DNA from: Owenia fusiformis
Taxonomy: Eukaryota > Annelida > Polychaeta > Sabellida > Oweniidae
Length of the DNA: 64,000 bases
Assembly (NCBI GenBank): GCA_903813345.2
Contig: CAIIXF020000001.1
Location: forward strand, 2,232,001-2,296,000
Direction of reading: 5' to 3'
The notes below the pieces were generated by a model that was not told where the DNA came from, ran no database searches, and worked only from the letters and a program-made list of their open reading frames with translations. The position numbers and the translations under genes were made by a program. Shown here piece after piece: positions 205-61,435 of the stretch (its first letter is position 1; the number at the start of each line of letters is the position of its first letter).

Positions 205-3200
205 CTAGTAAAGAACCTCTGATGAACTTCCTCATTGCAGGCTTAGTTGGCATGAAGCGATACTTGCAGCCAAATATACTCAGCTTCGTGTAATGATCCC
301 CGAGGAACTTGAACGCTCGGAACCTGTCCCCGCAGAGGTAGCAAAAATCTGTCTTACATTTGGAACATGTCATATGGTCGCACCCCATTGATCGCTGGAT
401 AAAGATCTGTAATAAAAGAAGGTTAATGGTGGATTAAAATAATGTTTTTTAAAAATAAACATAAAGTGGGTCTATTTTTGAAAGAAAAACCCTATATGTA
501 GGTCCATTTTTAGAGAAAAAAATCCCCCCCTCCCCCCGGGAGTACAGCACCTTAAGCAGTGTGAAAAATGTCTGAAGACATGAAATCATTACCGACAGAG
601 AATCAGCATTCAGTATGCTGTTATTGGCTAAAAGTAATCAGATTTCTAGATCATTTACTTACATTACACCGTGGACATTGCTGCGCATTACGTTGACCAA
701 AATGTTGTTCCTTTGCCCAACTTTTCAGCAGTCTCTCTCCTTTCCTATAATACAAATGAAATGTTAATTTATAATAGCAGCAAAAGATCTGTCAATGACA
801 TATCTGATTAAATACAGACAAAAATGGTGTCCAAAAATGAAAAAGTCATTGTACTGAAGTAATAAAGGGCTAGATATTAATTTACAATTATTTGGGAGAA
901 GAGTGCCCATGTTTATTTAGCAAAAACATTATATTTTGACTTGGGCACTGATGAGGCTTAAAGTTACAATATCTTTTTAAGTAAAACAAAATATCAGAAC
1001 AATTAAACATGAGCCATAAGAAACTATTTGCCCCTACTTGTAATTAAACTAGATGTCCCAGTCAAAAAGCATGCCACAATAGTTCAAATGACAAAATAGC
1101 ATGACATGCATTCTTAATACTGCTCATAAAAGTGAAACATATGAATTGGGCATTATTGTCTTATAAACAGACTTTATATTATCATGTTTCCAATTTTTCA
1201 AAATAATAATGTTTACTATATCTTTCTCCATATGGTATTATGTTCTGGGTATCTTTTGTTCATGTTTCTTTATCATAGTTGAACTATTTTGCAGACTTTT
1301 GGTTCATATAATCATTCATTATATGTTTTTCTTCTGCTGTTGCTCATTTACCCCCCCCCCTCCCTTCCCCCTTGTTTGTTGCGGATCAGTATGCCTCTCT
1401 GGGTGTGCCTCTTATTTCCTTAGCATTTAAACGAGTTCTCAATTTAAAACTTATTTTGACAGTGCTATCTATTGTTTGAAAAATCATGAAAAATTGGCAT
1501 ATTTTACCAACTAATTGCAAACGTGAGAAAGTGAAAATGTGCCAGGGGAGAACATTGTATATATATATATACGTATACTCCAACATGTACAGAGATCAAG
1601 TAACCCTATCAAGAGTTTAAAAGATACTTCACATAGGTACTAATCAGACAGGTAATCAGAGTTCAAACATAAATGATATTTGATAACAAGGATGTACTGT
1701 ATAATCCAATTCTATCATTAACTTTGAACCACATATATTTTGATTGATCTACCTGTACATGACATGAAGATCCTGGTGCAAGAAGCCAACAGCAAACATA
1801 ATGTTTGTTTACCTTTCATCATTGATTTATTCGTACAATCCCCTCCTCCTTTATGGCTTTTACCCTTTGGAATACCTTGACTCAATCTAATATATGACTC
1901 TTTATTTTGGAGATAATTTTTTTTTATCTCCAGATCAAACATCCAACAATGATCAATTAATATTCAATCATCAAGAGCAGGTCATTGACCCTCCCTCCCA
2001 ACCCCTCCGCCTTGTACATGATACTTAGACAATCAGAGCACTCAGAGATTTTCCGTTTACGTAGCCAATTTTACTCCAACTTGTAAATTCCCCAGTGTAA
2101 GTATACAGGTAAAAGGAGGGGGGGGGGTCAGTGACTCACTCCCTGCATATCAGATTAAAAAACAAAACACTAAGATCACATGCCTGACTGCACATTCAAC
2201 TCCCATAAAAACTTCACCATTAAAATATCATTTGAGATCATCAAATTTTGAGAGGGCAGTGTACTTAGACAAAGAGGATTCAGGGTACTTACCTGTAACC
2301 CTTGCAAGATAAGTCTGTGTGCCAAGGCGCCTGGCAAAGAAAACACCAACAAAGAGCGCACTCCTTGCATGTAACTGGAATACCCTTATGGACTTTGATT
2401 TTGCTCTTATCTTCGAGTTTATGTTTCTCCAACTCCATTATTTCGCTACATCTTGGACATGTCTTTATATGCGCTTCCTTGTTCGCATTTACTAAAAACT
2501 TGTGAAATTTATCTTTCATCTCAGTTTCAAGATGAAATGTTATCTCATCTCTATGGATGTAAGTATCACATACAAAATTGGGGCATTCAATTTTCACTAT
2601 ACCCTCGGAGACTTGGGTGACAAAATATTGTTTGACACAGTCGGAACATACTGCTAATGAACAACAAGGTCTCAAGCTTAGTGTTTTAGACTCCAAACAA
2701 ACACTGCATTCTGTATACTTTTCATCACCCACGGGGTAAGTAGGAAGAGGCCGATCAGCAGGTTCATTGTCCAAGAAATCGTCAAACATCCTCACTGTAG
2801 GAAGTGAGTTGTTGTCGATCATCCGTTGGATTCTTTCATTGATGTGATGTCTTTGAACATTGTTAGGTTCCATTCCTTGGAGCATTTGCTCAAAGAAACG
2901 GAGATCATCTGTATTTGGATAAGCATCTTGACCATCAGGCAATTCTTCGATATCACTTGTACTGTTTGTCCGTCGTCTCATTTTAGGGGACGCTGTGGAA
3001 TCATCTGATAAGCATAATGACACCATTCCAATACTTGCTATTGAACTAAAGCTACTAGATGTCAAATCTCGGCTGGAAGATCGTGACAGAGGTGGAGTTG
3101 ACACTGTGACATCAGAAAAGGGCGAAGCCAGAACTGTTCGATCATATGGTGCTGTGTCTTTATTAGGAAATGCGTTCGATTCTTGTTCTTCATGTAAGTC

Positions 3201-3218
3201 AATGTCACTAGAAGCCAT
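205..3218 (-). CDS. RNF217: RNF217-like RBR E3 ubiquitin ligase (5' part, three exons)
   Basis: Coding exons on the minus strand are 3218-2293, 744-663 and 406-205, joined at GT-AG junctions with phases that fit (926, 82 and 202 nt); the gene continues off the left edge. The first exon has a low-complexity Ser/Thr-rich N-terminus (residues 1-90), then RING1 (about 171-217, starting CSVC) and the IBR zinc region (about 237-305, with CPRC and CWCFLC). Exons 2-3 complete RING2 with CPRC (332-335), then GCDHMTC, whose first Cys (345) aligns with the catalytic cysteine that takes ubiquitin from the E2 in RBR ligases. The stretch after it (FLGDH, SIFGCKYR) is typical of RNF217 rather than RNF144. 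The C-terminal membrane segment known in the family would lie outside. I chose the ATG at 3218; an in-frame ATG lies 8 codons upstream (3242). Confidence 0.88.
745..2292 (-). other. RNF217-like intron 1
   Basis: Contains a C-rich tract (1351-1372), a TATATA run (1556-1572) and a G-run (2116-2127). The word AAAATCATGAAAAATTGGCA (about 1480-1500) recurs at 47455-47475. No additional exon or bounded element is seen. Confidence 0.35.
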
Positions 3219-3818
3219 ATTGTAATCAGCAATACAATTCAAAAGCAGTTATCCCTTCTTTCTAAAGCAAACCAGGAATTTTTTTCTCCTTTGCAGCCTG
3301 ACAATTGTTTTGTTATTGTCTTGATTTGAGGTCATTTTGAGAGGTCATATATCTTACTCGAGTCTCTAGAATATAGAGAAGGCTTTGGACCGAAGTAACA
3401 TATATCCCACCTTCAAAAACATCCTTCCAATCTCCTGAAATGTTCAAAAACCTGTCTATTTGAAGTCCGAAGGTTTTACGCTTACTCCTACATATTTCTA
3501 TGTAACAGAATTGACGTCAACCTACAATATTCCGTAATTGTTTGCGATATTTTTATTGATTGTGTCATCAAGATGGTGGTTAAATACCCTGTTCTATTTT
3601 TAGCATGATTGGCATCTCAAGAAACAGCTGATTGGCTAATCATAATGTACCTAGTTTGTGATTGGTTATTTTGGGGGAATCCCAGAGGGGAATCTCTTTA
3701 ACCACGTGACCAAGCACTTGTCTGTTTGTACATCCGGTTTATTTAAAAATTAACAAAATTTGTAGTTTTTTCTTCTTTATAGTAGAATTAGACTCAACGA
3801 AGGAGACCAAAAAGTAAG
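3219..3818. promoter_or_regulatory. Head-to-head promoter region of RNF217-like and PREP genes
   Basis: The two start codons diverge and are only 600 bp apart. Between them lie a perfect CRE-type palindrome TGACGTCA (3512-3519), a CACGTG E-box (3703-3708) and three ATTGG sequences, i.e. inverted CCAAT boxes (3607, 3631, 3661). No TATA box is obvious next to either start. This arrangement is what a shared bidirectional promoter would look like; transcription starts are not visible from sequence. Confidence 0.5.
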
Positions 3819-6800
3819 ATGACCTTCCAATACCCTCAGGCACGGCGTGATGAAACGGTTGTTGAAGATTACCATGGAACAAAGGTATTTTTTAACAAAT
3901 TCAACATTAGGAATTTTGACAATGACAAGGCAACTTTCTTGTAAAATAGAGTCTAGCATTGGCTTTCTCTTGAAAAACCATGGTAGTTGGCCTCACATAG
4001 GAAATAAGCATTGGAGGAAGTCAGTTCCCTCCTCTTTTTATATACTTTGACATTACCTTTTTCCACAGGGAATCGCATGGAGTGTCGGGCTAGACTGTAT
4101 CCTTCGTCTGAATAAATATTATATTCGGTCTGTTGGATACATACTAAGTGTCGGGCAGAGCCCTTGTGAGTCTTCAAAGTGTCAATCTTTAGAAAGGGAT
4201 ATCGGAAAATGACCTGTGCAGAAAAATAAATTTAAAAATTTTAAGCTAAAAATAAGTTGAATCATTCCTATAAGCTACATACACATCTCTTGAAACCCCA
4301 TGGTTCAACATATAGAATTATCGAGGGAAAAAATAATGGAAGCAATCCATTGACTAGTTACTCAGAAATGTAGACGAGTTCTTCGAAATGATATAACGTG
4401 AAATTTCTGCAATTTTCGAAATTTTAAAATGAAGTACATTTCAGTCTATAGCTTTCTTAATATACACTCACCATTAAAATATGCATAGCCCATGAAATAT
4501 GTTCGTTCACGGGGTTCTTCTTTAATGACGCTTCCCTATGGTTACACGTTTATCACAAATAACATCTCAGAACAACTGCCACTTGTGGATATGTGATGAA
4601 ATAAAATTTTCTTGACTAATTTTAAGAAATGGCCAGCAACCGGATATGAATAATGATCTGCATTTTCAGGTGTCACTACAGTAAATATCACTAATGTTTG
4701 TACATATGTACTGTATATATGCAGGATGAAATCAATTGCATCCCAAGGCCCATATCCAGGGGGAGCAGAGGGAGCGGCCCCCTGGCCAGAAATTCAAAAT
4801 CATGCAGTTTTTCACCATTCTGAGCACTTTTTCGCATGCATTTTTCCAAAAACTGTCAACAATCTCCTTCCCTTGGTAAAAGCTCCCCCTTGGTAAAACC
4901 ACTCCCCCCAGGTAAATCCTGGCTAAGGCCCTGCATCCCCATTAAAAGTCAATGGCACCCTTAAACTAGACATTGGGATTGCTTGTTTGCATTAATTATC
5001 CCAACGAACGAAGTTCGGTAGGGATATAGTGAAGCCCTCCGTCTGTCCGTCCGTCAGTCAGTCAGTCCGTCCGGAAGATAACTCAAATACTAGTTGACGG
5101 ATTTTCTTCATATTTAGTGGAATGATGTATATTGGTGAATAGTTTTACGCAAAAAAATTTTTTTCCAAGATGGCCGCCACTTTAAAAATGACGGGACTTT
5201 TTCGCAAAAATCATAAATTTTTCATTCTAAACTAAAGTAATTAATATTATTGTTTGAAATTTTGGTAGTACATTCGCAACATCTATCTATTTCACATATA
5301 TTCCGTGTTTGTCATCCTGACCCCCAGGGGCCGTGTATGGGGGGTCAGGAAAACAGAAATTTTCGCTAATTTTTAGATCTTTCTGAAGTATAGCTTTATT
5401 ATACTCAAATGAAAGGCAATTAAGAGTAGATTGCAAATATTGTATCTTTTTTTCTGATTCGAGCCTCGTATAATTCAAAATGGCCGTCTAATGTACGATT
5501 TCGCAATAATTTTTCGATCCCTTCAAAGTATGGCTATATTATACTCAAATTAAATGATGTAATGAGTATAATTGATTGGAATTCGATAATTGATATTTTG
5601 TTTCTTGGGATTTGCTACTCCGTGGAGTTGCCATTATCTAGTTATATTATTCATATCGATTAGAAACTTCAACCAAGGTCTGATATTGTCTTTGTCAACC
5701 ATGTTTATTTAGATCCTGCAAGGATGTCTATCTCGATAGACAAGTCACATCCTTGGTTACTATAAGACTTCATTAATTAGAATATGTCCAATGATTTGGA
5801 CCATTGCTAAATCCTGAACCAAAGCAGCATTAAAACTGATATTACTTCCCAATGTTGCAGGTACAAGACCCATACCGCTGGCTGGAGGATCCTGATTCTG
5901 AAGAGACAAAGAAATTTGTTGATGATCAAAATGATGTTACCGTGCCATTTATTAAGCAATGTTCATTGAGTGGTAAATTAAATGAGAGGTAAGTTGCATG
6001 GAAAGTTAATATGAGATTGTCAATCATTTCAGATCATTTGGATATGCGATACATAGCTTAATATTACATGTAGTTGACTCTTTTGGAGCCCAGACATAAG
6101 TTTCTGATATCTGTATGTAAAATATTAAGCACTTACTTTGATTTTTTTGTGATTCAGCGTTTATCTTAACAAGTCTGAACATTCTTTTACTTTACCACTC
6201 AGACTGAGAGGATCTCGCGAAAAGTGTGTATACTCAGTTAGCCTTTAGACAATTTTTTATTTCCTTGCCATAGTTTTCTCAAATAAGTTCAGTAAAGCCA
6301 ACCATAGCAATGTGAATACTCTCTGTGCACAATGCTAGCTACTACTGCAGAACCTATTAACCAGTACATCACACTTTTCTCTGAGAGCCTCCTTCCTCAG
6401 ATTGCTTCATTTCCATGAGACACTTTATCCTTACTGGGGTTGTGGCAGGCAGGTTTTGGGTTGGGACTGGGGCATGGGTGACTAGACAAGGGGTCGGATA
6501 GACCTAATACAACAATGGAGGGTGACTATTGGCCTATTCAACCATCTACATATACTTAAACAACCTAAATGCCGACAAAATAGAATTCCAATAACTAGAG
6601 ACTTGCTCTTTTTTGAATTGATCAAACCCCCCCTCGTGATGTATATGCTCTTATATGCATACCTGAGATTCTTCGACATATCATATGTGATCTATGGGAT
6701 TTTACTATTGTTGTATCTGGTCAGTTGCATAACAACTTGTCTTTTCCTTCCACTGTTGATAATATACCATATAAATCAGCATCTCAAATACATTGTGAGT

Positions 6801-9800
6801 CCCTACTCCCTATGTTTGACCTTAAAAGTTCTAGCAACCAGTTGTGTTGTACCTGGAATTTGCATATTAACATTTGCTCCAAACCTGAAAATGTTATTAC
6901 TTCTTATAGCAGGAGATGTCCATCCTAATCCAGGTCCGAACAATCTTTCATTTTTGTTTTCCAATATAAATAGCCTCTCAGCAAATGGGGGTACTCGATT
7001 TGACTCTTTGAAACTAAGAATAAATGAACTAAGTCCAAGCATTATTGGCCTTTGTGAGGCTGGAATTTCCAAATCCAAAATGGATTCGGGTGATTTTGAC
7101 ATTAATAATTATAATGTTTTTTACAGTGAAAGAGGTAGAGGTCTGGTAATTTATACTCATAAAACCCTAGTGACAAAAATCTCTAATGACTTTATCATAG
7201 ATGGGCTTGACATCCTGTTAGTAACTGTTATTGTGAACCATAAACGAATTTTATTTGGCACTTGCTACAGGTCACCCAGTCAGAATGCAACAGAAACAAG
7301 AAATTATTTTTCATTATTGGAAACTCAACTTGATCAAATAGTAACATCTCAGCCGGCCTTTGACCATGTCATACTGATGGGTGACCTGAATGCAAAACAT
7401 TCAATCTGGTATGATAATGATGACATAAACTTAGCAGGAACTAAACTCTTAGAAACCATAGATAACCAAGACTTTGTACAACTTGTTAGTGAACCAACTA
7501 GAATAACTGATCACTCCAAATCCTGCATTGATCATATTTTGACCGATTCTCCAGATATTTTTGACAACTGGGATGTCACTGATCCCATTGAAAAAACCGA
7601 CCACAGCACAATTGTAGCTCAAATTAAAGTTGGTGTGACTAAGTCCAAGCCTATTAAAAAAACCATTTGGAAATACCATGAAGCTAATCTTGAAACTTTG
7701 AATGATGCAATTAGAAATACCGAATGGACAGATATTATCGATAGAAACATAGACTTGGACTTAGCTACCTCTAACTTTATTGAAAAACTCTCGGACATAT
7801 ACAAATCCAAAATTCCAAATAAAATCATCACAGTAAGGTCAAATGACCAGCCATGGTTCAATAATAATCTTAAACGTGAAATATCAAAAAAGAAAGTTTT
7901 ATATAAGAAATTTTCAAAAGCTCCTAATCAAGTTAACAAATTCAATTATAATCAACAAGCTTCTAAAGTTTCCCAACTAATTGAACAAGCCAAAGAGGCA
8001 CATGAACTCAAAACTATCTCATCAATTGACCAACTCAATAAATCTGATAAAAACTATTGGAGGTTAATTAAATCATTCCTTGGTAACAATTTACATAAAA
8101 ATGATATTTCTAGTATCTATGATGATGTCTCTGGACACGACTTATCTAACAACCTTGATATAGCTAACCGATTTATGAGTTTCTTTGCCTCAAAAAATCA
8201 TACTGATGCAACTTTTGATCAATTGCCCCATTTCCCAATTAGGACTAATTCTCTACTCATTTCCGCCCAGACCGATCAATTTGAGGTAATGAAAATAATT
8301 TTGTCCTTAGACACCTCAAAGGCATGTGGCCCAGATAACATCACAAACAAAATGTTGAATTTGACAGCCCATACCATTTCAAAACCTTTAGCCAACTTAT
8401 TCAACAAACTTTTATCAAAGTGTACCTACCCTGATATCTGGAAAATTGGAAATGTTTGCCCAATTTTTAAGAAGAATGACAAATCAAACATCAACAATTA
8501 TAGACCTATCACTCTTTTAAGCTGTATCTCTAAAGTATTTGAAAAAGTTTTAGCTGATCGAATCAGGAAGCATTTAATTGACAATAATCTTCTTTTCAAA
8601 CATCAGTCCGGATTCTTACCAGGTCATAGTACTATTCATCAACTTTTATCGATTGAACATCTTCTTCAGAGCACATTTGAACAAGGAAAAGCTTCCAAAA
8701 CAATTTTTCTAGATATAGCGGCTGCATTTGACAGAGTACCACATAAGCTACTACTTCATAAACTTTCAGCATATGGCTTCCAAGGGCAAATTCAAAAAAT
8801 TATCAAATCTTACCTTACTAACAGAAAAATTGCTGTACAGATATCTGGGAAACTTTCAAATTATTCTGAAAATGACTTTATCAATTGTGGTGTCCCCCAG
8901 GGCTCAATACTTGGGCCAATATTATTTCTCCTATACATTAATGACCTTCCAGACAATCTGGAGGGGCATTGCTATATTTATGCGGATGACACTTCTCTAC
9001 ATCATCCTTTTGACCCTAAGCATCCACAAGAAGTAGATGCAATAGCCAGATCTAACCTAATTAAAATTGAAAAATGGTCTGACACCTGGAAATTGGAGTT
9101 TAAACCTGAAAAGAGTTCTGAAATGATATTCCACTCATCCAGATCTAAAGTCGATAATGTTTCTGTTTCAAAGTTAAACAATGTTGAAATTACCAGAGAT
9201 CACGAGCACAAACATCTGGGATTTACTTTTGACCCAAGCTTATCATATGACAAGCATATTGGAGAAATCACATCAAAAATACGAAAAATGTTGAACCCTT
9301 TAAAGAAACTTAAATATAAGTTAGGTAGTAAGCATCTAGAAACCATATTTAAGTCCTTTATTTTACCCCATTTTGACTATGGTGCTATCATGTACAGCAC
9401 AGCCTCAAAGTTCCTATTACAACGACTCGACAGTCTTTATTATAAAGCTGCACTTTATTGTTCTGGGTGTATCCAAGGGAGCAGTTCAAAAAAGGTTTTA
9501 AACCTACTCAATTGGCCAACTCTTGAATCAAGACGCAGTATCCAGATTAACAACTTTATGTTCAAAATTGTAAATGGTACAAGTCCTCCCTATGTAACTG
9601 ATATTTTTGACAAATTTAGAAACCATGCAAACAGAGTATTGAGATATAATGAAGCATTTAAAATGCCCATTAGATGCTCAAATAGATTCTCCACCTCAGC
9701 AATACCAGCTGCAATTTCAAATTGGATCAATCTTCCACCTGCTATTAAATCTAAGAATACTCTTTCGAATTTTAAAAAACACCAAAGAGTACATTTCCAA

Positions 9801-12800
9801 AAAACGCCCTCGTTTTTGTCAACAAGCCAGCTTAATCTAACAAGGGTTCAAGAAATAGTTCTCAATAAAGTGAGAGCTGACCTATACTTCAAAGCCCAGT
9901 TCTACGCTCACAACTTTCAGTCTATTGACAGTCCTAATTGCACTTGTGGAAAACCACAAACTCTGAAACATTTTCTCTTTCAATGTGACTTACTTACTAT
10001 ACAAAGACAGCAATTCATGGACAAACTCACTGATCTCGAACCAAACATCTTCAGTCATAATCTCTCTCAAACTGATTTCATAGCTATTTTGAAAACAGGA
10101 ATTCCCAAATTAAACATAGATGCAAATTCCCAAATACTACTTCTCATTGTTAATTTTATCAAAGACAATAGCTAATTCCCTCCTTCTTATCCATCTCTAG
10201 TATCCTCAAGTCCCGTCACACCTGCCCTAGTCCAAGACCCTGCCTGCTCTGCCACTTCTACTTCCACCTGCCCCCTATTCTTATATAATGCCATTGTGGC
10301 GATTTAAGAATTTACATGTCTGTATTTACATTTTTTGTATTCTATTGAAATAAATTTAATAATAATAAAAATTTGGATATTGTCAAGGAAGGTTAATATG
10401 TGTTCATGTATTCCTCCCCATTTATGAAATTGAACATTTTTGATACTCTAAATTAAAGAGAGAATCAGATATAGCGAGCAGGCTAAACAAAAAATTGTTT
10501 CAATTTTAGAATATTTTTGGCTCATGTCATTCCTTGTCATGTCTATTTTCTAAAAATCATAAAAGTGCATACCTTATTCCAGGTAAACTAAAGATTTTTA
10601 CAATAATGTTTTATTTTTCTATAAGAATGGTAAATATTTGGGAGAATTTAAACATTTTTCACTCATTTTTGCACTTTGAATCGTTAATAACTTCACCAAT
10701 TTATAACATATTGTGAATCTTTTGGGAGATATTGTATTTGATATTATAAGGAATAGATTGGTAGGTCAATTATACATGTTCCTTGTAATTTTGTCACCCT
10801 CTATAGATCAGATTCTGCCTTTAAATCTTAACTTCCAGTTAAAAAATTACCCTGAGATTATGAGGATTTATCCCCTCCCCCATTGATGTATTGACTATGT
10901 CTGTAATCATGCCATTTATTTCACTTGTAGTATCAAGGCATTATGGGACTATCCGAAATACTCATGTACATCTAAACATGGCGATCGCTATTTCTACTAC
11001 CACAATTCAGGTCTACAGAACCAAAGGTATGTCAATTCAAGATATTTAAAGGCTCCATGTAAAGCTTTAAACACTTTACTCATACCCAACATAATCTAAT
11101 AGCCTCCAAATGTATCCTTGTTGTATCCTTAAAACCAAATGTTCTTGTTTTGTCAAAGTGTGAAAATAAACAATGCAATTGTTTTACAGCGTGCTCTATG
11201 TGCAAGACTCCCTTGATGGTGAGCCTCGGGAGTTCCTTGATCCCAACAAGCTCAGCGAGGATGGAACAATCTCACTCAGTGGTACAGCTTTCTCAGAGAA
11301 TGGCGATTACTTTGCATATGGTTTAAGTGAGAGTGGATCAGATTGGGTTACTATAAAGGTAAGCATATATCTTCTTCCTATGCCAAATAAATGCAACATT
11401 GGATTATTGCTGTAGTATTGATTTATAGTAGAATATGTTACCATTTAATATATTATAGCTAGCTTTTTTAGCTATACTCATGTACATTATATTTGTGGTA
11501 ATGCAATTAATAAATAACGTGTTAGTTAATATAAATCGTCTTATTATGCCATGATTATGATACAACATATACTCTATGCAAATAGTAACAACTTTGTTAT
11601 TACACTTTACTGTACATAAAATATATTTTACTTGATATCCCTCATGTTTTATGTTGGTATTCCTTGTTATTCTGACTTTAAGAATTCAGTCCAATATCGA
11701 AAAGTTTTAGTTTCATGTGTTAAAACAGATCGACTCAGTTCAGATTTCTATTTTTGTCTCTATGTACAATATATTTTATACTTTCATTATAATTACACTA
11801 TTCTATTTATACAATGAATTATAAAGTTACTGTATTCTAAGTACAATATTTATTTTCTAATTTGCAGTTCAAGGAAGTTGCCTCTGGCAAGGATCTCCCA
11901 GATGTACTCAAGAGAGTAAAGTTCTCCAGCATGGCCTGGACGCATGACCATAAGGGCATTTTCTACAATGTATGTACATCTTTCATGGCAGTGTCATTCT
12001 ACTTAAAATATCTCTTTTCTTTGTACACATGAATATTCATTTTTGATGTTATTCCATCAAGGGGTCTCTAATTTTTTGGTGGATGGAGCCTAGGTGGTGC
12101 TTGAGAATTTGGGCAAAGATTAAAAAGAAATACTTTTGCCAAGCTTTACCACATCTGAGAAATTAATTAAAAAGTTTATTTTGAGATAACATAGATAAGA
12201 ATCTTTCTATTTCTGTGGATTTGGGAGTTTTTGATTTTAGGGATTAAATCTGGCGATCGATTGGTTAAAATCTTTTTTGACTGGTTGTTCACATGCTTTT
12301 AAATTTAATTTTCTCCAGTGTTACCCAGAGACTGTACAGGAAGGCAAAAGTGATGGAACGGAGACAACCACAAATGTGAACCAGAAACTGTTCTATCATC
12401 GTCTTGGAGAGGACCAATCAAAAGATACTTTATGTGGGGAGTTTCTAGATCACCCTAAATGGATGATGTGAGTTAACATTGTTATTTTGTCACTAAAAGG
12501 TTTTTGAAATAATTTGTCTTTAAGAATTTTCTGACTGTTTTCTGAGCTTCTGTTTGACTTTGATATTTGTAGTTATTCCAAAGATATGAAATTCAAGTAG
12601 GAATGTAGAGAAGCAACTTGTCCATGTGTCTATGAGTTCCTTTATTCAAGCCATAACTCAAATGCCTGTTGACAGATTAGGTTCAAATGTACAGCCTGAT
12701 ACCTTATGAAAATAGGACCTTTGCCCAAGAAAGAATTTCCATTATGGCTGTTCATCATTTTTCGGATTTGGTTGAAATTGCCTTTTTAGGGGCATAGAAT

Positions 12801-15800
12801 CTTTGCTCCATAAGGAATTTTCAAGATGGCTTCTTAATTCAAAACTGCCACCAAAACATGTTATTTTGGATAAATCAAATACTATATGTGAATACTTAAG
12901 AAGAATTTTTGGAGATGATTGTTGAATTCAAAATGATTCCCATATTTCAGAAAAAGGCAATTTTTGATAACTCAAACACCAGATTTGGTACAGATTCTAT
13001 AGCCTGATATTCTATAGTCTTATGGGCATAAAAACCCTTACGTTTAGATTATTTCAAGAGTGTAGTCTCATCCACCTTTAATATGAATGCAATTTTTTTT
13101 TGTTGAAAGCGGTGTAGAAGTGAGTGACTGTGGCCAGTATCTGGTGTGCGGTGTAAGGGAGGGTTGCGATCCAGTCAACAGGCTCTTCTTCTGTGACCTA
13201 CATTCCCTAAAAGATGGCATCTCAGGGCTCTTACCATGGGTCAAGGTCGTAGATAATTTTGATGCTGAATATGAAGTAAGTAAAAAAGAATATATTTGGC
13301 ATCATACAATAATTAAAGACACTGGCAATAATAATAACATGCATTTTGTGTTAACAAAAAATTTTAAGACTTTTTAGACGACCCTAGTATATTTTTTATA
13401 ATTGTAAAGGAAAAATTATCAGAAAATTCTTTTCAATTGCTTTTAGTATGTACTTGAGATGATACTGACAACAGTAAAAACTAACAGTAACTTTAGAAAA
13501 GTTGGAACAACACAAATAATATACAATAAATGTAAATCTTAAATTTCAGTATATTACCAATGAGGGAACAGTGTTTACATTTAAGACCAATCTCAACTCA
13601 CCAAACTACAAGCTCATTAACATTGACTTCAGCAATTACAACATGGTAAGATTAAGTTTTCATGATGATGACAGAATTCGTCAATAAAATATGTTAAAGT
13701 TATAGAGTGCAAATGAAATTTACAAAGTGACTTTGAAACAAATCATTTCCGAAAGAATGGTGGCAAAATCTGAAACACCTTTCAAGCATTATTTGAAATT
13801 ACCTTTCAAGCATTCTTGTAAAATCCACCAACAAATACTTTTCAAGCATTCTGGGATATTCCCCCAATAAACAGCTTACATTTTAATATTTTTCAGCTTT
13901 GGTCATATTTAACCAGTCACATTTGAATAACATTGATTTCTGTGCGTTTGATTGCTGGCTATGTAATTATGTACAAAGAAGAAATATTACACTCAATTAT
14001 AAATTGTGTAAACTTTTTGCAGGAATTTTGGAAGGATCTTGTGGCAGAAGATAAAGATGACGTCCTTGAGTGGGCCGGTTGTGTTCACCAATCAAAATTG
14101 ATCCTCTGCTATCTGCATGATGTCAAGGTGGGGAGATATGACATTGATATGATGTCAGTATGAATCTGTTCTGTGTGAATTCAGATGTCTATATGAACAT
14201 AGGATTGATTGTGACCATGTCTAATAATGTGATCAGTAACTCAGAATGGCCTTTTTGTGCTCAGTAGTGGTGTCAGCTTTTTGTGGATCGATTTGGAACC
14301 AATGCTATCCAACGTCATTTGTACCATAATGCACCATTAGAGCCCTGGTTATTTTGTTTTTTCCAGAATGTCCTCTATATGCACAGCTTACAGTCAGGTG
14401 AGAGGCTCACTACATTCCCATTAGATGTTGGCAGCATCGTGGGCTTCTCAGGCAAGAAGAAAAACTCAATGGTATGCATTCTTCATTTCTTTATGCAGTA
14501 TTTCCTCACTATGATATCTGTTATGTTCTATTCTTTTTGATTCAAAAATTTCCAAAGTAACAGAAAAAGGACATTTTTAACGGGGTGAATGAAAATATCT
14601 TTAGAAATTTCAGATTGTCAACTTTATTTTGAAAATTTTTTGAAACTACATGTATAATCATAATATTTTGCCATTTTTATTTCATTTAGCACAGTCTTAG
14701 CTAACTGGTTTATTAAAATTCTATTAGGAACACTCACTGTGATAGTTCAAGAGTGCACTAATGAGACAACGCCAAGTTGCTTTTCATATCTCTATTCACT
14801 GATAAAGCAACTTGTTTCGTATACCTCTTTTGGAGAGGTTTCACATTGGCTTAGAATATAATCAAAACTATTATTTCATTTCCAGATGTTCTACCAGTTT
14901 ACCTCGTTCCTTACCCCTGGTGTAATCTATATGTGTGATCTTACTCAGGAAACATTACAACCCAAAGTAAGTACACTAATGGATGAAATTCATCAATGCT
15001 GTTTGACAAAGTATGACAATTTATTTGGAGGTGGAAGGGGTCATAGACTTGTGGCCATCTTCTATCTGATGATAGATTTCTGCTGAGAAGTTTTCTGATT
15101 TTATATGTTTATTTCAAAATGTTAAAATAAATGTATATGTATGATGTTATTTATAACTGATGTTTTGATGTGATCCCTTTAACAGCAAATTCAACATGGA
15201 GCCCTTGTTTCTAGACTGCAAATGAGAATCTTGGGCAATTAAGATTATGGAGTTCTGGGCTTAAATCTTTTAGTATAATCGTGCATTGTGAATTTAGAGC
15301 TATATATTTGTAAATCTAAGTAAAGTTAAAGATGACATTCTGCTTTTTGTATTTCATAATGTGTCCATGCTTGTTTACAGGAAAACCTGTATATCCAAAC
15401 ACCTCTCTAATCTGAACACCTCTCAATGTGAACTCATATGTGTTTGGATTAGACACTGTTTTCTGCGCTTTACATTATTTCTTGCTGAATCTCATTTTTC
15501 CACTCTATTTTGCATTTCAAAATTTCCCAACTTTTACATTTTTAGTTTGTATGTGTATTCTACAGGTGTTCAGAGAGACTCAACTGAAGGACTTTGACTC
15601 CAGTCAGTTCCAAACAGACCAGGTCTTCTACCCTAGCAAAGATGGGACAAAAATTCCTATGTTTATTGTCCATAAAAAGGTAAGTAATATGACCAACAAT
15701 ATAGTTTACATGGGCTATATAGAAATACATATTACCTTTATTTGATACTTGTCTGACTTACATAGAAAACCGAGGAGGAAAACCTTATATATGTTCATAT

Positions 15801-18800
15801 GTATAGTGTTAAGTTTGAAATTTTTACAGGGCATAGATCTCACTGGTGACCACCCAGTACTGCTGTATGGCTATGGAGGTTTCAACATATCTATCACCCC
15901 AAGTTTTAGTGTGAGTCGTATTGTTTTTATGCGCCACCTGGGTGGAATCCTGGCTGTCCCCAATATAAGGGGAGGAGGGTAAGCAGACATCAACTTGAAT
16001 AATTAAGTGAACTTTTAAATTGAAATGTGAACTCAATGTTAATTTTAGGCCAGAAAGAAAAATTAACCCCTTCTTAATTCATGAAACATTGGTTGCTCAT
16101 AAGCAGTGCTTAGTGCCTCACTATGAATTTCCTTAGTATAAATATAATGTAATACATTTAAACTTCATTTTAAAGTTGTTCTTTGGTGTACATGTTGTAA
16201 TGTGCTGCTTTGCAGAGAGTATGGACAGAAGTGGCATGATGGTGGACGTCTGGCTCGCAAACAGAATGTATTTGATGACTTTCAGACTGCTGCAGAGTAC
16301 CTGATCAAAAACAAATACACATGTCCAAAAAGGTAATATTAGTTATTTGTTGAGGTCGATATGTCGAATTGATTTAGTGTTTTTATTATTATTACATTAT
16401 GCTGGTATCATCACAAACCAAGGAGCCTGTGAGCTGTGAAGTAATGTTCAAGTGTATTATGAACCTTTGTACAATCCCCCCATAAATGGTATTGTTTAAA
16501 AGTAAACTAAGATACAAACACTGTTTATTTTAGGATAACCATCAATGGTGGGTCTAATGGAGGCCTATTGGTTGGAGCATGTGCTAAGTAAACTAAAGAT
16601 ACAAACACTGCTTATTTTAGAATAACCATCAATGGTGGGTCTAATGGAGGCCTATTGGTTGGAGCATGTGCTAAGTAAACTAAAGATACAAACACTGTTT
16701 ATTTTAGAATAACCATCAATGGTGGGTCTAATGGAGGCCTATTGGTTGGAGCATGTGCTAAGTAAACTAAAGATACAAACACTGTTTATTTTAGAATAAC
16801 CATCAATGGTGGGTCTAATGGAGGCCTATTGGTTGGAGCATGTGCTAAGTAAACTAAAGATACAAACACTGCTTATTTTAGAATAACCATCAATGGTGGG
16901 TCTAATGGAGGCCTATTGGTTGGAGCATGTGCTAAGTAAACTAAAGATACAAACACTGTTTATTTTAGGATAACCATCAATGGTGGGTCTAATGGAGGCC
17001 TATTGGTTGGAGCTTGTGCTAAGTAAACTAAAGATACAAACACTGTTTATTTTAGGATAACCATCAATGGTGGGTCTAATGGAGGTCTATTGGTTGGAGC
17101 ATGTGCTAAGTAAACTAAAGATGCAAACACTGTTTATTTTAGAATAACCATCAATGGTGGGTCTAATGGAGGCCTATTGGTTGGAGCGTGTGCTAAGTAA
17201 ACTAAAGATACAAACACTGTTTATTTTAGGATAACCATCAATGGTGGGTCTAATGGAGGCCTATTGGTTGGAGCATGTGCTAAGTAAACTAAAGATACAA
17301 ACACTGTTTATTTTAGGATAACCATCAATGGTGGGTCTAATGGAGGCCTATTGGTTGGAGCATGTGCTAAGTAAACTAAAGCTACAAACACTGTTTATTT
17401 TAGAATAACCATCAATGGTGGGTCTAATGGAGGTCTATTGGTTGGAGCATGTGCTAAGTAAACTAAAGATACAAACACTGTTTATTTTAGAATAACCATC
17501 AATGGTGGGTCTAATGGAGGCCTATTGGTTGGAGCATGTGCTAAGTAAACTAAAGATACAAACACTGTTTATTTTAGAATAACCATCAATGGTGGGTCTA
17601 ATGGAGGCCTATTGGTTGGAGCATGTGCTAAGTAAACTAAAGATACAAACACTGTTTATTTTAGGATAACCATCAATGGTGGGTCTAATGGAGGCCTATT
17701 GGTTGGAGCATGTGCTAAGTAAACTAAAGATACAAACACTGTTTATTTTAGAATAACCATCAATGGTGGGTCTAATGGAGGCCTATTGGTTGGAGCATGT
17801 GCTAAGTAAACTAAAGATACAAACACTGTTTATTTTAGAATAACCATCAATGGTGGGTCTAATGGAGGCCTATTGGTTGGAGCATGTGCTAAGTAAACTA
17901 AAGATACAAACACTGTTTATTTTAGGATAACCATCAATGGTGGGTCTAATGGAGGTCTATTGGTTGGAGCATGTGCTAAGTAAACTAAAGATGCAAACAC
18001 TGTTTATTTTAGAATAACAATCAATGGTGGGTCTAATGGAGGCCTATTGGTTGGAGCGTGTGCTAAGTAAACTAAAGATACAAACACTGTTTATTTTAGA
18101 ATAACCATCAATGGTGGGTCTAATGGAGGTCTATTGGTTGGAGCATGTGCTAAGTAAACTAAAGATGCAAACACTGTTTATTTTAGAATAACCATCAATG
18201 GTGGGTCTAATGGAGGCCTATTGGTTGGAGCATGTGCTAAGTAAACTAAAGATACAAACACTGTTTATTTTAGAATAACCATCAATGGTGGGTCTAATGG
18301 AGGTCTATTGGTTGGAGCATGTGCTAAGTAAACTAAAGATACAAACACTGTTTATTTTAGAATAACCATCAATGGTGGGTCTAATGGAGGCCTATTGGTT
18401 GGAGCATGTGCTAAGTAAACTAAAGATACAAACACTGTTTATTTTAGGATAACCATCAATGGTGGGTCTAATGGAGGCCTATTGGTTGGAGCATGTGCTA
18501 AGTAAACTAAAGATACAAACACTGTTTATTTTAGAATAACCATCAATGGTGGGTCTAATGGAGGCCTATTGGTTGGAGCATGTGCTAAGTAAACTAAAGA
18601 TACAAACACTGTTTATTTTAGAATAACCATCAATGGTGGGTCTAATGGAGGCCTATTGGTTGGAGCGTGTGCTAAGTAAACTAAAGATACAAACACTGTT
18701 TATTTTAGAATAACCATCAATGGTGGGTCTAATGGAGGCCTATTGGTTGGAGCATGTGCTAAGTAAACTAAAGATGCAAACACTGTTTATTTTAGAATAA

Positions 18801-21800
18801 CCATCAATGGTGGGTCTAATGGAGGCCTATTGGTTGGAGCATGTGCTAAGTAAACTAAAGATACAAACACTGTTTATTTTAGGATAACCATCAATGGTGG
18901 GTCTAATGGAGGCCTATTGGTTGGAGCATGTGCTAAGTAAACTAAAGATACAAACACTGTTTATTTTAGGATAACCATCAATGGTGGGTCTAATGGAGGC
19001 CTATTGGTTGGAGCATGAGCTAAGTAAACTAAAGATACAAACACTGTTTATTTTAGGATAACCATCAATGGTGGGTCTAATGGAGGCCTATTGGTTGGAG
19101 CATGTGCTAAGTAAACTAAAGATACAAACACTGTTTATTTTAGAATAACCATCAATGGTGGGTCTAATGGAGGCCTATTGGTTGGAGCATGTGCTAAGTA
19201 AACTAAAGATACAAACACTGTTTATTTTAGAATAACCATCAATGGTGGGTCTAATGGAGGCCTATTGGTTGGAGCATGTGCTAAGTAAACTAAAGATACA
19301 AACACTGTTTATTTTAGAATAACCATCAATGGTGGGTCTAATGGAGGCCTATTGGTTGGAGCATGTGCTAAGTAAACTAAAGATACAAACACTGTTTATT
19401 TTAGAATAACCATCAATGGTGGGTCTAATGGAGGCCTATTGGTTGGAGCATGTGCTAAGTAAACTAAAGATACAAACACTGTTTATTTTAGAATAACCAT
19501 CAATGGTGGGTCTAATGGAGGCCTATTGGTTGGAGCGTGTGCTAAGTAAACTAAAGATACAAACACTGTTTATTTTAGAATAACCATCAATGGTGGGTCT
19601 AATGGAGGCCTATTGGTTGGAGCATGTGCTAAGTAAACTAAAGATACAAACACTGTTTATTTTAGAATAACCATCAATGGTGGGTCTAATGGAGGCCTAT
19701 TGGTTGGAGCATGTGCTAAGTAAACTAAAGATACAAACACTGTTTATTTTAGAATAACCATCAATGGTGGGTCTAATGGAGGCCTATTGGTTGGAGCATG
19801 TGCTAAGTAAACTAAAGATACAAACACTGTTTATTTTAGAATAACCATCAATGGTGGGTCTAATGGAGGTCTATTGGTTGGAGCATGTGCTAAGTAAACT
19901 AAAGATACAAACACTGTTTATTTTAGAATAACCATCAATGGTGGGTCTAATGGAGGCCTATTGGTTGGAGCATGTGCTAAGTAAACTAAAGATACAAACA
20001 CTGCTTATTTTAGAATAACCATCAATGGTGGGTCTAATGGAGGCCTATTGGTTGGAGCATGTGCTAAGTAAACTAAAGATACAAACACTGTTTATTTTAG
20101 AATAACCATCAATGGTGGGTCTAATGGAGGTCTATTGGTTGGAGCATGTGATAAGTAAACTAAAGATACAAACACTGTTTATTTTAGGATAACCATCAAT
20201 GGTGGGTCTAATGGAGGTCTATTGGTTGGAGCATGTGATAAGTAAACTAAAGATACAAACACTGTTTATTTTAGGATAACCATCAATGGTGGGTCTAATG
20301 GAGGCCTATTGGTTGGAGCATGTGCTAAGTAAACTAAAGATACAAACACTGTTTATTTTAGGATAACCATAAATGGTGGGTCTAATGGAGGCCTATTGGT
20401 TGGAGCATGTGCTAAGTAAACTAAAGATACAAACACTGTTTATTTTAGAATAACCATCAATGGTGGGTCTAATGGAGGCCTATTGGTTGGAGCGTGTGCT
20501 AAGTAAACTAAAGATGCAAACACTGTTTATTTTAGAATAACCATCAATGGTGGGTCTAATGGAGGCCTATTGGTTGGAGCATGTGCTAAGTAAACTAAAG
20601 ATGCAAACACTGTTTATTTTAGAATAACCATCAATGGTGGGTCTAATGGAGGCCTATTGGTTGGAGCGTGTGCTAAGTAAACTAAAGATGCAAACACTGT
20701 TTATTTTAGAATAACCATCAATGGTGGGTCTAATGGAGGCCTATTGGTTGGAGCATGTGCTAAGTAAACTAAAGATACAAACACTGTTTATTTTAGAATA
20801 ACCATCAATGGTGGGTCTAATGGAGGCCTATTGGTTGGAGCATGTGCTAAGTAAACTAAAGATACAAACACTGTTTATTTTAGAATAACCATCAATGGTG
20901 GGTCTAATGGAGGCCTATTGGTTGGAGCATGTGCTAAGTAAACTAAAGATACAAACACTGTTTATTTTAGAATAACCATCAATGGTGGGTCTAATGGAGG
21001 CCTATTGGTTGGAGCGTGTGCTAAGTAAACTAAAGATGCAAACACTGTTTATTTTAGGATAACCATCAATGGTGGGTCTAATGGAGGCCTATTGGTTGGA
21101 GCGTGTGCTAACCAGAGACCAGACCTGTTTGGATGTGCCATAGCTCAAGTTGGGTAAGTTTACATTGTATTTACATTCTCAGCTATCACACACAGACTGA
21201 AGCATAACTGTCCACTCATACCAGAGGCCTTATGTGTAGTCAGCAACTTGACTCCAATTCCACTGTTTTCTTACCTTGATCATGCAGCTAAATTACTTGC
21301 AAAGAGGCCTTGAGCCAGTTAGGTCATTCTGTGCCAGTTTTGTCTAGTGGTATGTAAACCAACTTGACATAGGAGTACAATGTATGAGCACTTACATCTT
21401 CTTAATAATAATATACAGATGGAAGTAAAGTAAATCTACTTTAATAGATGAATCCTAAGTAATATAAGAGTTTTATGTACACATATAATTTCATAATTTG
21501 CAAAAATTACTCTAATGAAATGTTATTGTAGAGTAATGGATATGTTGAGATTCCACAAGTTCACAATAGGGCATGCTTGGACTACAGACTTTGGGTGCGC
21601 AAACAAAAACAAAGAGGAATTTGATTGGCTGTATAAGTAAGTTAGCTTACCTTATCTGAGCTGTTATGTATTATTTAATACTATCTATACATACAAATTG
21701 GAATAAAAGGCACAATGTACTCATATGTACATAGATAGGCCTATCTAAACTTCTAAGGAGTTTTTGTGAACATTCTTTTATCCCATCTTAATACCTTAAA

Positions 21801-37000: not shown

Positions 37001-40000
37001 TCCTAGCTTCTGCAATGTTACACGCCTGGAATGTCATCTGTAGGCAGGAGCAGCCCATACCAAAACCCATACAGTCCATGTAGATGTGATCAGGCTTAGC
37101 TGCCCTGGCTGCCTCACCATCATCACCTAACACACTGAAGTCTTCTATAAATGGCTCTTTTGTCTTTGTATCCTTGAACACTGCAAAATATAATATGAGA
37201 TTTGATATACCATACTACAAAATATTTAATTCCTTTGAATTCACTAATTGTTCAATATTTGGATTCTAAAATTAAAATTTTAAGCATGCGTGATACCCTC
37301 TTTTAGGTCTGACAAAAATATTAATATATTATGTCAAACAAGTTTCACAACCGAATATTAACATATAACATGATCAACTACATTGTTTGCGTATTTGAAT
37401 TAATAATATTGCTGGTACTGGTATCAACATGAAAACACCTCTGCAGATGTTCTTATGATCCAAAGGATTAATTTCACTTCCCAATGCTATGTGTCTTAAC
37501 TTTATTTTATCTCATGCGTAGTAAAGTAAAACCTCTTTATTCAGAACACCTCTCAATGTGAACACCTCTCAATGTGAACACCTCTCAATGTGAACACCTC
37601 TCAATGTGAACACCTCTCAATGTGAACACCTCTCAATGTGAACACCTCTCAATGTGAACACCTTTTCAGTCACATTCTTTTTAATCTGCTCTAGACTTTC
37701 ATGTTAAGAACATTAAAATATGAACACTTGGAAATCTGAAAGCTTTTAGCGTTTGAATTAGACAGGTTTTGCTGTATATCTTTTTGATGTATTTAATTGT
37801 ATATTGTATTGTACATGTACATGTATATCTTCTTATTTTAACACTCACCTGGTATATTTATGATGACCTTTTCCTTTCTCCTATGACGAATATTCCTTGT
37901 AAGCGTTCTAAAATGTGAAATATACCATCATAAATACTCTTCTCTTGATACTGCCTCTCTATAGTAACAAAAAGAAATGAATTAGGTTGCAGCCACAACC
38001 TACGAGAGATTAGGTAAAATTCAATCCTGACAAATATCAAGATTAAGTATTTCAGGAAACAGAAGCTTTTCCAAGGTTTTAACATACGTAATAGAGAGAT
38101 AATGGCAGTAGTTGTGCAATGTACAATGTACTCATTCAATGATGCTGATCACTTAACATGACATTACAGTTTAGTTTGTAATTTCCACTCTATGTTTTAA
38201 TTTTACATCTAATGGGGGACAATACTGTCCTGACTGTCCATGATAGTAAATCTTATATTAAGATGTGGATTGAGTGTAGCCCATTCTGATACTCATTACA
38301 TACACCTTTACACCCCTCTCCATAAGTTTAGCAACTGGAAATTTAAATATTGTCAGGGTCTCATATGTCATCCAATGAATACTTCCTGTTGCCAAACTAA
38401 TGAAGGGGAGTGTATTTTATTTCAATTTTCAAACAAGCAATATGCATACAAGAATGTGATCTCTCACAAAGAGAGCCTGCTGCCTTAACTGGCAAGATTG
38501 GTTCTCTTTATAAATTAATTCACTGGCCAATTTTGTACTCAGACCAGGGGATTATGGGGAGGGCGTAATAACAATGAAAGCCTAACATTGAATATACCCA
38601 CCTCCCCCTTGCAATACTGTTGAATGAACTTACTTAAAGCGTGGGTGGCCCTGAAATATGACCTCATCAGGGTAGAAAAGTGATCTTGAGGCGCCCTCTT
38701 TAGGACCTGCCTCTGGTGTTGCTTTGTGCGGAGGCTCGGAAAAATTCAAACATCCAGTCCTGAAGAAATAAAATAGAAACTATTCATGAAACATGTAATT
38801 ACTGATTGCAGCTTTCATAAGTTTAAAATCTTTACTTTGGGACATAAAGAACAGCGTATAATTAATAAGTTAATTATATTTTTGGTTGATTATCATCCCT
38901 CATCCCAGCAATTGATTGAAAACAATGAGATATTTTTCTAAACTTTAACACAATCAGGTGTTTTACACCCTAAGGCCTAAAAATGAATTCATTGAATCCA
39001 ACCATATTATATCTTCACTTTAACCAACCATTTCAAAAGTATGATATGATGATTGATGAAACTTCCTAAATGACCTTGAACTCTTGCTGAATCATTGCTC
39101 CATTCAACAGCATGGAGTGATGTACTACCTTTATACAGCATTCAAACAAGACTTAAAACGGGTAATTGTAATATAGCCATGTTATATTGCCTTTTATTAT
39201 CTTACACAATCCATCTTACACTTCTGGATAAGGAAGTCAGGTAGCATGACTTGCAAAAAATTCCAATTCCCATCCAATAATTTTTGCAAGTCATGATCAC
39301 AACCTTCCTATTCTATCTAAAGTGGCTATACTTAATGATCCTTACTGTAGATCCTTGCTTTAAAATGTTTATTTGGTTTATGTTTTTCTAATTCAAAGAC
39401 TTTAAAATAATATAGACTATACTTTAAATAGCCATGTACATTCATATTTACAATGTCAAGGGAATATTGAAGTGCAAGTATAACTTAACTCTTTGATATA
39501 AAAAGGGAAAAAATCACCATTCCGATAATTTGATTCTTTAAAAGAGAGCTTCATCTATATTCCTTTGATAATTCTCTGATCAAGCCTTAACCAATCAGAA
39601 TACTGAGAATACAGTTGATAAAATTCCAGCCAGCCAATCAAAATAGCATTCGGTGAATTCCATAGTTTCACAAGTAACTGTACTTCATTTTAAACTGCAA
39701 CTCTCATTTAAACGCAATGTCAGCTACTTCATTTAAATCTTATCAGCATGAAAACTGTACGTAAATTTCTCCTATTGATAGGCAGTATTGAGAGGCTCCA
39801 GTATTAAGAGGCTCTAGTATTGAAAGGCTCCAATATAAAGAGGCTCAAATATCATGAGACTCCAATATCGAGAGGCTCCAGTATTGAGAGGCTCCAATAT
39901 TAAGAGGCTCCAATGATGAGAGGTTCCAATATTGAGAGGCTCCAATTACAGAGGCTCCAGTATTGAGAGGCTCCAATATTGAGAGGGTCTACTATTGAAA

Positions 40001-60799: not shown

Positions 60800-61435
60800 T
60801 CTTGATGCCCCATACTGTACTGTAAGTTTATCATTGATGACCCATACTATTGATCACTTGATGCCCCATACTATTGATCATTTGATATACCATACTATTG
60901 ACCACTTGATTTCTCACATTATTGATCACTTGATGACAGATGTCCCACACTGTTGATACCTTGATATCCCATACTATTGATCACTTGATGTCCCATGCTG
61001 TTGATCACTTGATGTCCCATATTATTGATCACACTGTTAATTACTTCCTATACTGTTGATCACTTGATGTTCCATATTTTGATCAGTTACTGCCCCATAT
61101 TGTTTATTACTTACTGCCCATCACTTACTGCCCAATATTTATGATCAATTGATGTCCCATACTATTTAACACTTACTACCCCATGCCATTGATCACTTAA
61201 TTTGCCACACTGTTAATTACTTGATTCCCAAACTTATTATTTATTATTGATCATCCTGGACTGTTAATTACTTGATATCCAGTACTGTTGATCACTTAAT
61301 GTCCCATACTGTTCAGATCACTTGATGTCCCATACCATTGATCACTTGTTGCCCCATACTATTGGTTAGTTGATGTCCCATACCACTGATCACTTGATGT
61401 CTCATACCATTGATTTCTTGATGTAGCATGCTTGT
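60800..61435. repeat. ~24-bp minisatellite (GATCACTTGATGTCCCATACT)
   Basis: About 25 imperfect tandem repeats of TTGATCACTTGATGTCCCAT with frequent substitutions and small indels. The minus-strand open frame with repeated GMGHQ words is its translation, not a gene. Confidence 0.9.

Follow-up and report, generated by a model that had tools for sequence, protein, structure and literature searches.

A 64,000-nucleotide (nt) stretch of DNA, hereafter the window, contains a gene for the prolyl oligopeptidase PREP in which the boundary between intron 14 and exon 15 has been multiplied into a long tandem array. Truncated units, each joining a splice acceptor to the first part of the catalytic-serine exon, stand one behind the other ahead of the only complete copy of that exon, which we call the master copy (Table 1). 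We consider it likely that the array is a 'mirage' – a minisatellite lying across an exon-intron boundary – that is spliced out as part of the intron, with the master picked through exon definition.

The PREP array and its variation

Joining the 18 PREP exons gives one open frame of 711 amino acids, and the introns are all GT..AG. In a phmmer search the product matched the prolyl endopeptidase of PDB entry 6jci with 1163.8 bits over residues 3-711, and Pfam identified an S9_N domain (4.7e-141) and an S9 domain (7.2e-63). Consistent with an S9A prolyl oligopeptidase, the S9_N propeller and S9 hydrolase are full length and the GGSNGG, DHDD and GHG stretches are present. The master copy connects exons 14 and 16 in frame. 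A preliminary description of this DNA, made from its letters alone, had named the gene PREP and ended exon 14 at 16332; the gene model agrees on both counts.

We searched the genome for S9_N and S9 domains exon by exon, an approach that weak matches may escape. All five S9_N matches are PREP exons inside the window. Three of the 11 S9 matches lie in PREP, and we assign the other eight to other S9 genes because no S9_N match is close by. By these searches PREP seems to be one locus; a second intact copy, which the preliminary description had raised as an objection to its own interpretation, was not found in the S9_N search of the genome.

Tandem Repeats Finder (TRF) reported 53.0 copies in the array, with 98% matches, 0% indels and a score of 8874. 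When the sequence is cut every 87 base pairs (bp) from 16534, 52 units hold the register and the 53rd enters unique exon sequence after 54 nt, as stated in the preliminary description (a unit of 54 + 33 nt, repeated 52 times in exact period and followed by the sole complete exon). The exon part of a unit starts G/A-ATAACCATCAATGGTGGG, the 33-nt spacer reads GTAAACTAAAGATACAAACACTGTTTATTTTAG, and the 53rd copy runs on as CCAGAGACCAGACC. Junctions with the master copy can be told from junctions with a unit by the sequence after 21058, ...GCTAACCAGAGACC. The contents ascribed to each unit are largely as described: the acceptor AG is invariant, and the GGSNGG codons contain a single variable column (column 31, GGC/GGT), which is synonymous. 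The CTAAA word, however, precedes units 2 to 53 only, and CTAAG stands before unit 1.

Table 1. Features of the PREP array and of similar arrays. Coordinates are those of the window unless a surveyed stretch (L011, L028) is named; a slash marks the splice site.
Feature	Position	Strand	Remarks
PREP (prolyl oligopeptidase), coding part, 18 exons, 711 amino acids	3819..22765	+	exon joining, phmmer, Pfam
Exon 14	16216..16332	+	donor AAG/GTAATA; faces choice among 53 acceptors
Tandem array, 87-bp period, 53 copies including the part within the real exon	16500..21111	+	TRF
Intron stretch preceding unit 1 (33 nt upstream of its acceptor)	16501..16533	+	CTAAG against CTAAAG in spacers, one A fewer
52 truncated units: 54 nt from exon 15 (18 residues) followed by a 33-nt GTAAAC...TTTTAG spacer	16534..21057	+	
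Mid-strength GT at exon base 15, ATG/GTGGGT	16548..16553 (unit 1)	+	found in every unit, and at 21072 in the master
Weak in-frame GT at unit junction, TAA/GTAAAC	16588..16593 (unit 1)	+	recurs in each unit at 87-bp spacing
Master copy, the real exon 15, 96 nt, catalytic-serine GGSNGG	21058..21153	+	donor TGG/GTAAGT
Acceptor array, 3 copies of 88 bp, tattgcag/GTGTACCC	L011 3520-3800 (G000:C7)	-	last exon of DPP8/9-like gene; last copy is the true exon
Donor array, GATCAG/GTAACT x3, 55 bp	L011 6884-7065 (G000:C7)	-	same DPP8/9-like gene; first copy true
Donor array, 4 copies of 113 bp, each ending ACAGGG/GTRAGTACC	L028 1615-2064 (G000:C11)	-	ALDH16-like gene
Degenerate donor array after ...TTTATAG/GTAAGT, 78-88% matches	L028 5673-5977 (G000:C11)	-	ALDH16-like gene; counted as probable

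We observed 17 distinct unit types with a mean pairwise difference of 2.0%, and 10 of the 87 columns vary. No higher-order multi-unit blocks were found in the array beyond those in shuffles, and the longest open stretch through it on either strand is 28 codons. A search of the 498-Mb genome with the array DNA gave 43 matches, all inside 16500-21111, and thus found no second array; the sequence represents a single haplotype. Such uniform repeats are error-prone, and the BflGb6 mirage of amphioxus was misassembled in a draft (PMC3087553). That the copy number is an artefact and the true array much shorter would nevertheless surprise us, given the variety of unit types, the lack of repeated multi-unit blocks, a window without N, and the presence in two further genes of this assembly of shorter arrays built alike (3-4 copies); some units may have been expanded or collapsed.

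Exonic variants fall into eight types, of which six are synonymous, one is missense (units 42-43) and one is a stop (unit 29). This is an excess of synonymous changes relative to random changes with the numbers of transitions and transversions fixed (p ~0.006), and variable columns are concentrated at third codon positions (6 of 18, against 1 of 36 at other positions; Fisher p 0.004). The exon part (7/54) is no poorer in variable columns than the intron part (3/33; p 0.74). Three exonic variants are common, being present in more than two units; every one of them is synonymous, and the master carries two. Among the five rare variants, three are synonymous. In our reading, new units were copied from an exon that is under selection and were themselves little constrained thereafter; alternatively, units may be weakly used as exons. 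A single base separates unit 8, and likewise unit 48, from the master, and shared variants are dispersed over the array – both observations fit exchange within it.

Choice among the acceptors

The preliminary description regarded the acceptors as equivalent, and close comparison bears this out. Positions -19 to -1 are the same as in the master in 49 of the 52 units, and positions -19 to +9 in 14 of 52. Between -33 and +54 the master has no base of its own, though no unit shares the whole of its sequence from -33 to +1; the lasting difference between master and units begins at exon base 55. With the sequence near the acceptor equal in units and master, whatever selects the last site must lie further downstream. 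If the master is used, the deciding information would most likely lie at exon base 55 or beyond, that is, in the remainder of the exon and its donor.

We scored donors with a matrix built from PREP's own donors (n = 17), applied to real donors in leave-one-out fashion, and with U1 duplex energies. The exon 15 donor (21153/21154) is the best-scoring GT in 16333-21500, at 9.91 (8.67 when left out of the matrix), followed by an intronic GT at 21350 (8.46). Joined to this donor, the master gives an exon of 96 nt, unit 52 one of 183 nt, and successive units upstream 270, 357, 444 and so on up to 4620 nt for unit 1. From exon 14 to unit 1 is a 201-nt intron, well within the range of PREP introns (150-4942 nt, median 378). 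Proximity across the intron thus favours unit 1 and proximity across the exon favours the master, and the two rules therefore disagree. The earlier suggestion that the array is a natural test of acceptor choice holds in this sharpened form: intron definition points to one end of the array and exon definition to the other, 4.5 kb away among near-identical sites, and this in a natural gene rather than a minigene.

We propose that the array originated by tandem duplication of a short stretch straddling the PREP intron 14/exon 15 boundary, which would have left the sole intact exon at the downstream end. Slippage, or unequal exchange that takes in the real exon, would then account for its growth and partial homogenisation. 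In the normal transcript all 52 copies would be removed within a 4.7-kb intron: under exon definition the strongest donor, that of exon 15, would be paired across the exon with the closest acceptor upstream of it, which is the master's. Use of any other acceptor with this donor would give a premature stop and probably decay of the transcript. When a unit serves as a plain acceptor, 19 residues are predicted to precede the stop, as the preliminary description had it for every copy; unit 29, with 16, is the sole exception among the 52. Carranza and colleagues describe pairing across the intron when introns are short and across the exon when they are long, and a rule of proximity across the exon, as they describe it for exon definition, supports the choice of the master (PMC9225289). 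We regard the PREP array as a real and instructive case, in which we infer that the acceptor is chosen by exon definition.

Several points weigh against this reading. In the same study, 3' sites of equal strength under exon definition led only to a reduced upstream preference, with no clean switch (PMC9225289). Intron definition, which favours unit 1, is possible given that 10 of the 17 PREP introns are 150-414 nt long. Although the real donor is the strongest, it has a competitor near an acceptor, because units and master alike carry a GT at exon base 15 (6.7 bits; U1 -8.4 kcal/mol) that beats 3 of 17 real donors (leave-one-out). Its use would give a 14-nt exon – not a multiple of three, so that the frame is broken – and with the acceptor of the preceding unit it would form a 101-nt exon; our confidence is slightly lowered by this site. 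The synonymous excess is not required by an array that is spliced out, though copying from a constrained master could also explain it. Finally, beta-globin pre-mRNA with a duplicated 3' site and an exonic segment of 14, 55 or 205 nt between the two was spliced to the distal site only and very inefficiently, so the PREP array might depress PREP output (PMC5389562).

The preliminary description also saw in the array a possible switch for enzyme level. The array may be a putative copy-number-dependent device in which locally indistinguishable decoy acceptors, some perhaps used as in-frame 18-residue units via weak donors, would lower and tune PREP output; we think this unlikely. Were it true, the recurrence of boundary-spanning arrays in this genome would make splicing decoys of variable length a common origin of new introns and of differences in expression in a lophotrochozoan. 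Quite unlikely, too, is a putative splicing rheostat, in which copy number would set the loss of pre-mRNA to premature-stop forms and array length would thereby tune the level of PREP. Consistent with a rheostat, read-through from any of the 52 units is predicted to end in a premature stop, spliceosome progression was inhibited on one pre-mRNA whose 3' site was duplicated (PMC5389562), and the BflGb6 mirage differs in length between haplotypes, with six copies in one and three in the other (PMC3087553). The data of the amphioxus authors, however, suggest that regular splicing is not interfered with (PMC3087553, PMC3902484).

We see very little chance that the units serve as 54-nt cassette exons, with one or more of them included between exons 14 and 15 and each adding 18 residues in frame. 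Such inclusion is formally open to them: every junction has a GT, and a single unit included through it is predicted to keep the frame in 51 of 52 units (729 amino acids, without a stop), as is a unit that replaces exon 15 (one unit tried). The mainly synonymous exonic variants and their third-position bias also favour it, yet the contrast between common and rare variants also fits copying from the master. A cassette needs a donor and an acceptor flanking the unit, and while unit acceptors equal that of the master, the junction donor, at 2.49 bits, outscores a single one of the 17 real donors, that of intron 9 (leave-one-out). Its U1 duplex of -4.2 kcal/mol is weaker than those of 15 of 17 donors, equal to that of intron 10 and stronger than that of intron 5, and it has a G at neither -1 nor +5. 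The junction donor is thus weak, not absent, but within the same unit it meets the stronger, frame-breaking GT at base 15. Moreover, 33 nt lie between one unit and the next, whereas the shortest PREP intron has 150 nt. The stop in unit 29 and the missense change in units 42-43 are ill suited to coding use, and the enzyme would probably not withstand 18 extra residues at its nucleophile.

Known systems and lineage

Mirages were described from amphioxus as minisatellites across exon-intron boundaries, of either acceptor or donor type, in Adh3 and the globin genes BflGb6 and BflGb9 (PMC3087553); TnC and PGBD5, the latter a similar case, were added to them (PMC3902484). The BflGb6 mirage has repeats of 150-160 bp, in six and three copies in two haplotypes, and for amphioxus mirages the same source reports length instability, data suggesting regular splicing, and a model of intron gain (PMC3087553). 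The PREP array resembles them in that a tandemly duplicated unit spans the exon-intron boundary, the authentic exon is kept complete at the array edge, and AG/GT signals are present in many copies. It differs from the BflGb6 mirage in its 87-bp period and 53 copies, and from amphioxus mirages in sitting on a catalytic-serine exon and in a host that is very probably not a cephalochordate. The array is thus a member of a known, little-studied kind and not categorically new, as cases of this kind have been published (PMC3087553, PMC3902484). The core observation of the preliminary description stands; what it overlooked were the GT sites in the units, the synonymous excess and the similar arrays in other genes. 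Within the literature searched, new aspects are a mirage in a lophotrochozoan, the occurrence in several genes of one genome, and the length of the array. No mirages outside lancelets were recognised in a search that covered titles and the starts of abstracts and had most subscription papers outside its reach.

A related model is that of intron gain by tandem genomic duplication, the AGGT model (PMC4974935; also in PMC3087553). As in that model, the duplicated segment carries splice signals and puts spacers bounded by GT..AG between exon copies. PREP differs in keeping its old intron, and at 33 nt the spacers look too short for introns, of which the shortest in this gene has 150 nt. Minigenes with duplicated 3' splice sites were reportedly made by Reed and Maniatis in 1986. 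Constructs of this type have the same 3' site twice with a short exonic segment between (14, 55 or 205 nt, compared with 54 nt in PREP; PMC5389562), whereas PREP presents 53 sites instead of two, in a natural and complete gene.

The lineage of the host can be read from its Hox genes. Homeodomains at 18.08 and 18.02 Mb of C1, the chromosome that carries PREP, have the tails LKKEKQQIKDLNE and EKKENQAIKEINEQ. We take these tails to be UbdA peptides of the Lox4 and Lox2 type, respectively. Lox2 and Lox4 are lophotrochozoan genes (PMC5831810), and UbdA-type genes have been placed in protostomes (PMC2842273). In a cephalochordate, central Hox genes would lack protostome UbdA-type tails; the two genes with Lox4- and Lox2-like tails indicate that this is very probably a lophotrochozoan genome, not that of an amphioxus. 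The Hox genes weigh most in this; a search for the GFP family also gave no match, which is a weak argument against amphioxus, as the control gave none either. No COX1 turned up from which the mitochondrial code could have been read as a test of phylum. Eleven homeobox matches, including these two, lie on one strand at 17.97-18.47 Mb (G000:C1), forming a Hox cluster on the chromosome of PREP.

Similar arrays elsewhere and other features of the window

We ran TRF on 25 further stretches (241,120 bases), a non-random set chosen around S9, ADH and ALDH matches, with some neighbouring stretches. Forty merged arrays (period at least 30, at least 78% matches) cover 11,963 of the 241,120 bases, or 5.0%. 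At least four of the 40 span exon boundaries; they lie in two genes, and one is degenerate. Candidate open reading frames (ORFs) crossing array ends numbered 140 (including those of the window) plus 69. Parts of six were searched against databases and the others judged by eye, and four boundary arrays is a lower bound because only these six were searched. One array-crossing ORF peptide, in which the first residue of the query was inexact, had no database match.

Two of the four, one at an acceptor and one at a donor, belong to a DPP8/9-like gene. The joined query of the acceptor array matched DPP8 at 2.4e-10 (phmmer), and the exon of the donor array on its own matched DPP8 weakly (11 bits, E 5). 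The other two follow donors of an ALDH16-like gene, whose joined query gave a best match of 1.2e-17; the '16' in this name is our presumption. In the array at L028 1615-2064 the first copy alone has a preceding acceptor-like ctccag, and the first donor alone belongs to a complete exon. Consistent with exon definition, the complete exon comes last in acceptor arrays and first in donor arrays, in the PREP array as in the other four. This position is no proof of the mechanism, because duplication itself yields the same geometry.

These results place boundary-spanning minisatellites, described from amphioxus in the literature we found, in at least three genes of a lophotrochozoan and at both kinds of boundary. 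Such an occurrence suggests that they likely arise as a side effect of frequent local tandem duplication and that new introns could originate from them. We do not claim a hot-spot that targets boundaries, as arrays are so common that random placement may suffice. A further candidate, a 58-bp array, stands at the end of an ADH_N-like exon (L017 3502-3762, G000:C8), the ADH_N match having an E of 0.025, below the curated cut-off; an array of like unit lies about 5 kb beyond it (L017 9005-9680).

The window has further features, in PREP and outside it. Intron 2 of PREP contains a non-long-terminal-repeat retrotransposon, seen as an unbroken ORF of 1229 amino acids with endonuclease and reverse transcriptase domains (6486-10175, + strand). 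Directly upstream of PREP, on the opposite strand, an ORF encodes an IBR (RING-associated) domain (2289-3245, - strand). Degenerate arrays of 20 bp (46822-46965) and 24/48 bp (60830-61424) are present outside PREP. Minisatellites of 16-17 bp at 15398-15433, 37544-37663 and 39783-40290 are built of related units (ACACCTCTCAAT; ATTGAGAGG on the opposite strand); this family is a dispersed short repeat, and one of its occurrences lies inside PREP intron 11.

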